From positions 1 to 38,244 of the forward strand of contig SYIF01000125.1 of assembly GCA_005798855.1 (NCBI GenBank): a stretch of DNA of 38,244 nt. Direction: 5' to 3'. Both the position numbers and the translations under genes were made by a program. The notes under the pieces are model-generated. The model saw nothing but the letters and a program-made list of their open reading frames with translations. It did no database searches and was not told the origin of the DNA. Below, one piece after another: positions 35,152 to 35,258 of the stretch. The DNA is from Actinomycetota bacterium. GTDB lineage: Bacteria; Actinomycetota; Thermoleophilia; Gaiellales; F1-60-MAGs149. The stretch's first letter is position 1, and each line of letters opens with the position of its first letter.

Positions 35152-35258
35152 GAGGACACCACAACCGCGCGGATGTCATGTCCTCCCTCGCTGATCGCGT
35201 GAATACTGATTGCGCTGCTGCAGGGAGGACATGACATCCGCGCGGTTGTGGTGTCCTC
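35152..35258. repeat. long inverted repeat: 37-bp perfect arms, 33-nt spacer
   Basis: Arms at 35152-35188 and 35222-35258 are exact reverse complements and begin GAGGACACCACAACCGCGCG. Each arm is itself a rough palindrome: GAGGAC at one end, GTCCTC at the other, and CCGCGCGG at the centre. The structure fills most of the divergent gap between the pentapeptide gene (start 35134) and the Sce7726-like gene (start 35296). It could be a double operator, a non-coding hairpin RNA, or a MITE-like insertion; I see no flanking target duplication. Confidence 0.85.

Follow-up and report, generated by a model that had tools for sequence, protein, structure and literature searches.

The inverted repeat at positions 35152-35258 of the window (the whole stretch of DNA that was analysed, 38,244 nucleotides) raises the question of whether it controls the two genes between which it lies or belongs to a dispersed repeat family. 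Its left arm (35152..35188, + strand) and right arm (35222..35258, + strand) are 37 nt each and 100% complementary over that length, and they enclose a 33-nt spacer (35189..35221, + strand). Each arm is itself a quasi-palindrome centred on CCGCGCGG (GGACACCACAACCGCGCGGATGTCATGTCC), with palindrome units at 35152-35185 (GAGGACACCACAACCGCGCGGATGTCATGTCCTC) and 35225-35258. The arm coordinates and the complementarity confirm the description given in a first-pass annotation, which had reported exact 37-bp arms, a 33-nt spacer and quasi-palindromic arms. Such an inverted repeat is expected by chance about 2e-16 times in the window, and the unit is predicted to fold with -92.6 kcal/mol, compared with a mean of -43.5 for shuffled sequences (z -13.1).

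The unit lies between two divergent genes whose start codons are separated by 161 nt; both genes are outside the element. A pentapeptide-repeat gene (PF00805; 34700..35134, - strand) has its ATG start codon 17 nt away on one side, and a sce7726-family gene (NF033832; 35296..35838, + strand) has its ATG start codon 37 nt away on the other. The latter scores 95 bits against NCBIfam NF033832 (cut-off 70), but no Pfam family matched it. An Rfam search of the window produced no match, nor did a search of a plasmid collection. A consensus scan of the 161-nt gap detected neither a promoter nor a terminator, and the window copy is without a T-tract terminator.

A repeat family in part of one genus

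The unit belongs to a repeat family that is limited to one genus, and to part of that genus, of uncultured, mostly lake-derived actinobacteria. A 151-bp query around the unit gave 95 BLAST matches in its own genome (G000). The core palindrome, GGACAYSACA-N{4,18}-TGTSRTGTCC, is found there in 83 exact copies, a lower bound in a 1.9-Mb assembly that is 72% complete. Many contig ends coincide with a repeat copy; thus, the real copy number is probably higher. The same pattern occurs 84 times in the relative G009, 56 times in G005, 52 times in G006 and 16 times in G008, and the remaining eight genomes of the genus hold 0-4 copies each (4 in G003, 1 in G007). No copy was found in 28 genomes outside the genus, and a reversed control pattern had 0 matches. 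Across the class, the pattern is present in 8 of 399 genomes, all 8 from the same genus. Records deposited for these contigs derive from Lake Baikal, from Lac Pavin and from one further metagenome, and they are labelled Thermoleophilia or Actinobacteria.

Three main tip classes can be distinguished, CCGCGCGG, AAGTGCGCACTT and AAACCSSGGTTT. Copies of the CCGCGCGG and AAACC classes are frequently inverted doublets with spacers of 23-45 nt, and those of the AAGTGCGCACTT class are mostly singles. According to a crude codon-usage gene caller, the 37 assignable copies reside in convergent gaps in 24 cases, in tandem gaps in 11 and in divergent gaps in 2, one of which is the window copy. Among other neighbouring gene pairs, 16 of 174 are convergent (Fisher p 3e-12 against 24 of 37).

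A linked Y1 transposase gene at the pyrR locus

In G005, a Y1 tyrosine-transposase gene (L085:1417-2148) sits between a conserved gene and pyrR, and palindromes of the same family (GAGGACATGACAAACC) occur at 1220 and 1346 upstream of it and at 2139 downstream. G006 carries a homologue that is 69% identical, with an AAGTGCGCACTT palindrome directly upstream, on a contig that stops just past the gene. The protein scores 23.7 bits against Pfam Y1_Tnp (cut-off 23) and 56 bits against NCBIfam REP_Tyr_transpos, which is under the cut-off of 80. Its HYH motif and catalytic tyrosine (Tyr120) are invariant in 12 relatives. The best PDB match of its AlphaFold model (pLDDT 85) is 4er8, the E. coli RAYT bound to REP (E 2.5e-6), and the next-best structures are IS200/IS605 transposases. 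The model has C-terminal helices that may be HTH-like, and a match to HTH_23 is weak (E 0.025).

The cognate transposase gene is not in the assembly of the window's own genome, where a Pfam Y1_Tnp search gave no match. In this genome, contig C68 ends within the upstream gene, and contig C129 opens with an CCGCGCGG palindrome followed by pyrR. These edges imply that the transposase gene, if present, falls in an assembly gap, and we infer that the cognate enzyme of this genome is encoded between C68 and C129. A paralogue on contig C23, the only one detected by a protein search of the same genome, is 31% identical, has GGGCCC palindromes of its own and was rejected as the cognate enzyme. The locus L104 (G000:C23:13188-13838) is a second RAYT-like gene, with perfect AGGCGACATTxTGGGCCC palindromes on both sides.

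In G010 and G001, which have 0 repeat copies, the two flanking genes are assembled without this transposase gene. G003 has a 44%-identical gene at the pyrR locus, together with other palindromes. G009 and G008 are copy-rich, but no close transposase was found in either, and their lack of a long flank match makes the locus look unassembled. The orthologous RAYT locus of the genus is also present in a public record, CAMAWJ010000084.1 (L184), whose assignment to Bifidobacterium breve looks mistaken.

Empty, single and doublet states at orthologous sites

The window site is occupied in G009, a related species whose independent assembly carries the doublet at the orthologous position, and this removes the earlier doubt that the unit as such might be an assembly artefact. 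The arms of the two copies are identical at 36 of 37 positions and the flanks at 51-56 of 60; GAGGAC is replaced by GGGGAC on one arm, and GTCCTC by GTCCCC on the other. The spacer is inverted between the two copies, with a reverse-complement alignment score of 18 (shuffle maximum 9.8) and a forward score of 0.9; because all genomes are short-contig metagenome assemblies, in which assembly software can collapse or flip perfect arms, this inversion and some of the singles described below may be products of assembly. The same two genes are not separated by the unit in G005, where GCAGAGAGGACACCCTGTAAGCC is left, of which 9 nt (GAGGACACC) are identical to the arm end. Judged from these letters, the remnant could equally well be the scar of an excision or deletion or a site that was never filled, and it is compatible with the reported excision of REPINs that leaves a few arm bases (PMC3116915).

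Other sites vary in the same manner. At site A, G005 is empty, G000 has a single AAGTGCGCACTT palindrome and G009 has an CCGCGCGG doublet. At site B, an AAGTG-type single is present in G000 and G005 and an CCGCGCGG doublet in G006 and G009. The CCGCGCGG singles of G000 at C30, C134, C131 and C128 are doublets in G009 or G006, as is the G000 single at C137:13804. G005, which is more distant, carries doublets of the AAACC class at C16 and C77, where the CCGCGCGG class is found in G000 or G006. No direct target duplication was found at the occupied or empty sites examined. TnpA-REP cleaves at CT (PMC8266576); the junction at site A, GGCT|GATTGCG, is compatible with cleavage of this kind but is not proof of it. 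The site at C19 was rejected as evidence of an empty site because a larger indel surrounds it, and the G009 copy at the C57 site, which looks duplicated near a contig end, was left out. In one intergenic gap, the palindrome is of this family in G000 (C137:15251) and of a different RAYT family in G009 (C314, ~14990; L235).

Arms are perfect in 27 of the 33 CCGCGCGG doublets. The mean arm mismatch in this set, which takes in orthologous copies and whose members are not fully independent, is 0.42, compared with 3.3 for permuted arms or 1.97 for permuted arms in the best orientation; the lowest value in 2000 permutations was 1.36. Such identity is either actively maintained or recent, in agreement with the earlier suggestion of recent origin or strong selection. 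Spacers resemble one another more than shuffled sequences do, and a 28-nt outer tail, which the window copy lacks, adjoins 28 of 48 doublets. The spacer similarity and the recurring tail indicate that the whole unit was dispersed. Beside the palindromes, the flank consensus is CC/GG only; a general extension of the stem into the outer flanks was dropped, as pairing above that of permuted pairs was limited to the first 5 nt.

Origin of the family and alternative explanations

The unit is very probably a non-autonomous, REPIN-like palindromic doublet from a family that owes its spread to a RAYT/TIRYT-type Y1 (HUH) tyrosine transposase. Copy number, genus restriction, association with the transposase gene, presence or absence at orthologous sites and co-variation of the arms were all observed directly. 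On the other side stand the absence of the cognate transposase from the assembly of this genome, the copy-rich G009 and G008 with no close transposase, the divergent gap and missing outer tail of the window copy and the lack of a GTAG tag, and transposition itself is deduced from the comparison of sequences.

Functional palindromes maintained by the host, such as bidirectional 3'-end hairpins, terminators or protein-binding sites, might instead have been spread by selection and not by a transposase. The strong bias toward convergent gaps, the frequent sharing of sites between species and the long, stable hairpins would suit such a role. However, known REPs also show a convergent bias (PMC3733652), only part of one genus has the family, and the window copy lacks a T-tract terminator. 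Moreover, palindromes are missing at orthologous sites, their tips change freely at the same site, and they bracket a RAYT-like gene, all of which makes this explanation unlikely. An operator or RNA element controlling the pentapeptide-repeat and sce7726-family genes is suggested by the divergent arrangement, with start codons 17 and 37 nt from the unit, and the first-pass annotation had read the unit as an operator-like doublet. The two palindromic copies, which can form one long or two short hairpins, stand as described, but their service as an operator for the neighbouring genes is very improbable, given that at least 83 palindromes are dispersed in the genome, that the remaining copies adjoin unrelated genes, that G005 has the same gene pair without the unit, and that no promoter consensus was found in the gap. 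As a short, non-coding inverted repeat with many copies, the unit also resembles a MITE of a DDE-transposase element with terminal inverted repeats, and an ordinary MITE had been considered earlier. The many copies are present, but no direct target duplication accompanies them at occupied or empty sites, as is expected for a Y1 (IS200/IS605-like) mechanism; the arms are themselves palindromic, and the enzyme whose gene these repeats bracket is of the Y1/HUH type and not of the DDE type. A DDE origin is thus extremely improbable.

For a REPIN-like doublet, the chemistry of cleavage, the direction of the changes and the flipping of spacers may be pictured as follows. In a single-stranded state, for example on the lagging-strand template at a replication fork, the arms would fold into hairpins. 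The transposase from the pyrR locus would recognise the GAGGACAT/C-ACA stem, its putative substrate being single-stranded GAGGACAC...GTCCTC hairpins, and would cut and rejoin single strands near CT dinucleotides, so that the doublet is copied or moved without target duplication. Singles may mostly be shortened remnants or a separate tip class, and copies would persist where they are least harmful, between convergent genes. Movement of the doublet as a unit could keep the arms identical, probably together with conversion of one inverted arm by the other or template switching between them, events that can also turn the spacer around. It is conceivable, although doubtful, that palindrome sites serve as landing or conversion targets, with tip-class swaps, changes between singles and doublets, and spacer flips producing concerted evolution at fixed addresses, driven either by the transposase or by template switching during replication.

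Relation to known repeat systems

A GTAG or CGTC tag is the defining feature of REPs, which usually reside between convergent or tandem genes (PMC3733652). The present family resembles REPINs and BIMEs mobilised by RAYTs (PMC3116915, PMC8266576) in that two inverted palindromes and a variable spacer form a hairpin, that the many copies are intergenic with palindromes more conserved than the spacer, and that copies of these palindromes adjoin a Y1 tyrosine transposase gene (in G005 and G006). It differs from them in that the GTAG/CGTC tag is absent and the arm units are near-perfect palindromes of 34 nt. With IS200/IS605 Y1 transposons it shares the enzyme fold, the HUH/Y motifs and the absence of target duplication, whereas the element here is gene-less and the transposase stays at one locus.

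The family fits best among the TIR repeats of TIRYTs and TIRtrons, the closest known kind, although their motif is matched only approximately. TIRYTs resemble RAYTs, and the inverted repeats on either side of them carry no tag; some of these repeats are self-complementary and dispersed as dimers (PMC3733652). Most fall in TnpA-REP subclass 2.1 (RAYT group 1), with a C-terminal HTH and a GGGGWSAS motif (PMC6006769). Likewise, the Y1 gene described here, which may encode an HTH-like C-terminal end, is flanked by inverted, self-complementary, GTAG-less repeats that are also scattered as singles and dimers. Unlike in the published systems, the motif is mostly GAGGACAY; GGGGWSAS is exact in 21 of 318 arm ends and has at most one mismatch in 153 of 318. 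In addition, 80+ copies are present, whereas published TIR families are called moderately abundant, the host is a Thermoleophilia-labelled actinobacterium, and tips are replaced in place.

Literature searches for REP/RAYT in Actinobacteria found no paper. The unit represents a new lineage of a known bacterial repeat kind, and not an operator or gene-specific RNA. It is a clear case, in an actinobacterial (Thermoleophilia-labelled) lineage, of a palindrome family that has many copies, no GTAG tag and a RAYT/TIRYT gene linked to it. Its notable part is the in-place turnover of tips and spacer at fixed addresses, and with close relatives in which the same sites are empty, single or doublet, repeat spread and arm identity can be tested directly by genome comparison. 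As in the TIRYT systems, the published GGGGWSAS motif is found, in the form GGGGTCAG, at other Y1 genes of this genus. The other Y1 transposases of the genus (L080-L089, L102 and L108) have their own flanking palindromes, of the types GGGGTCAGACCC, GGATCC and CCTCGAGG.
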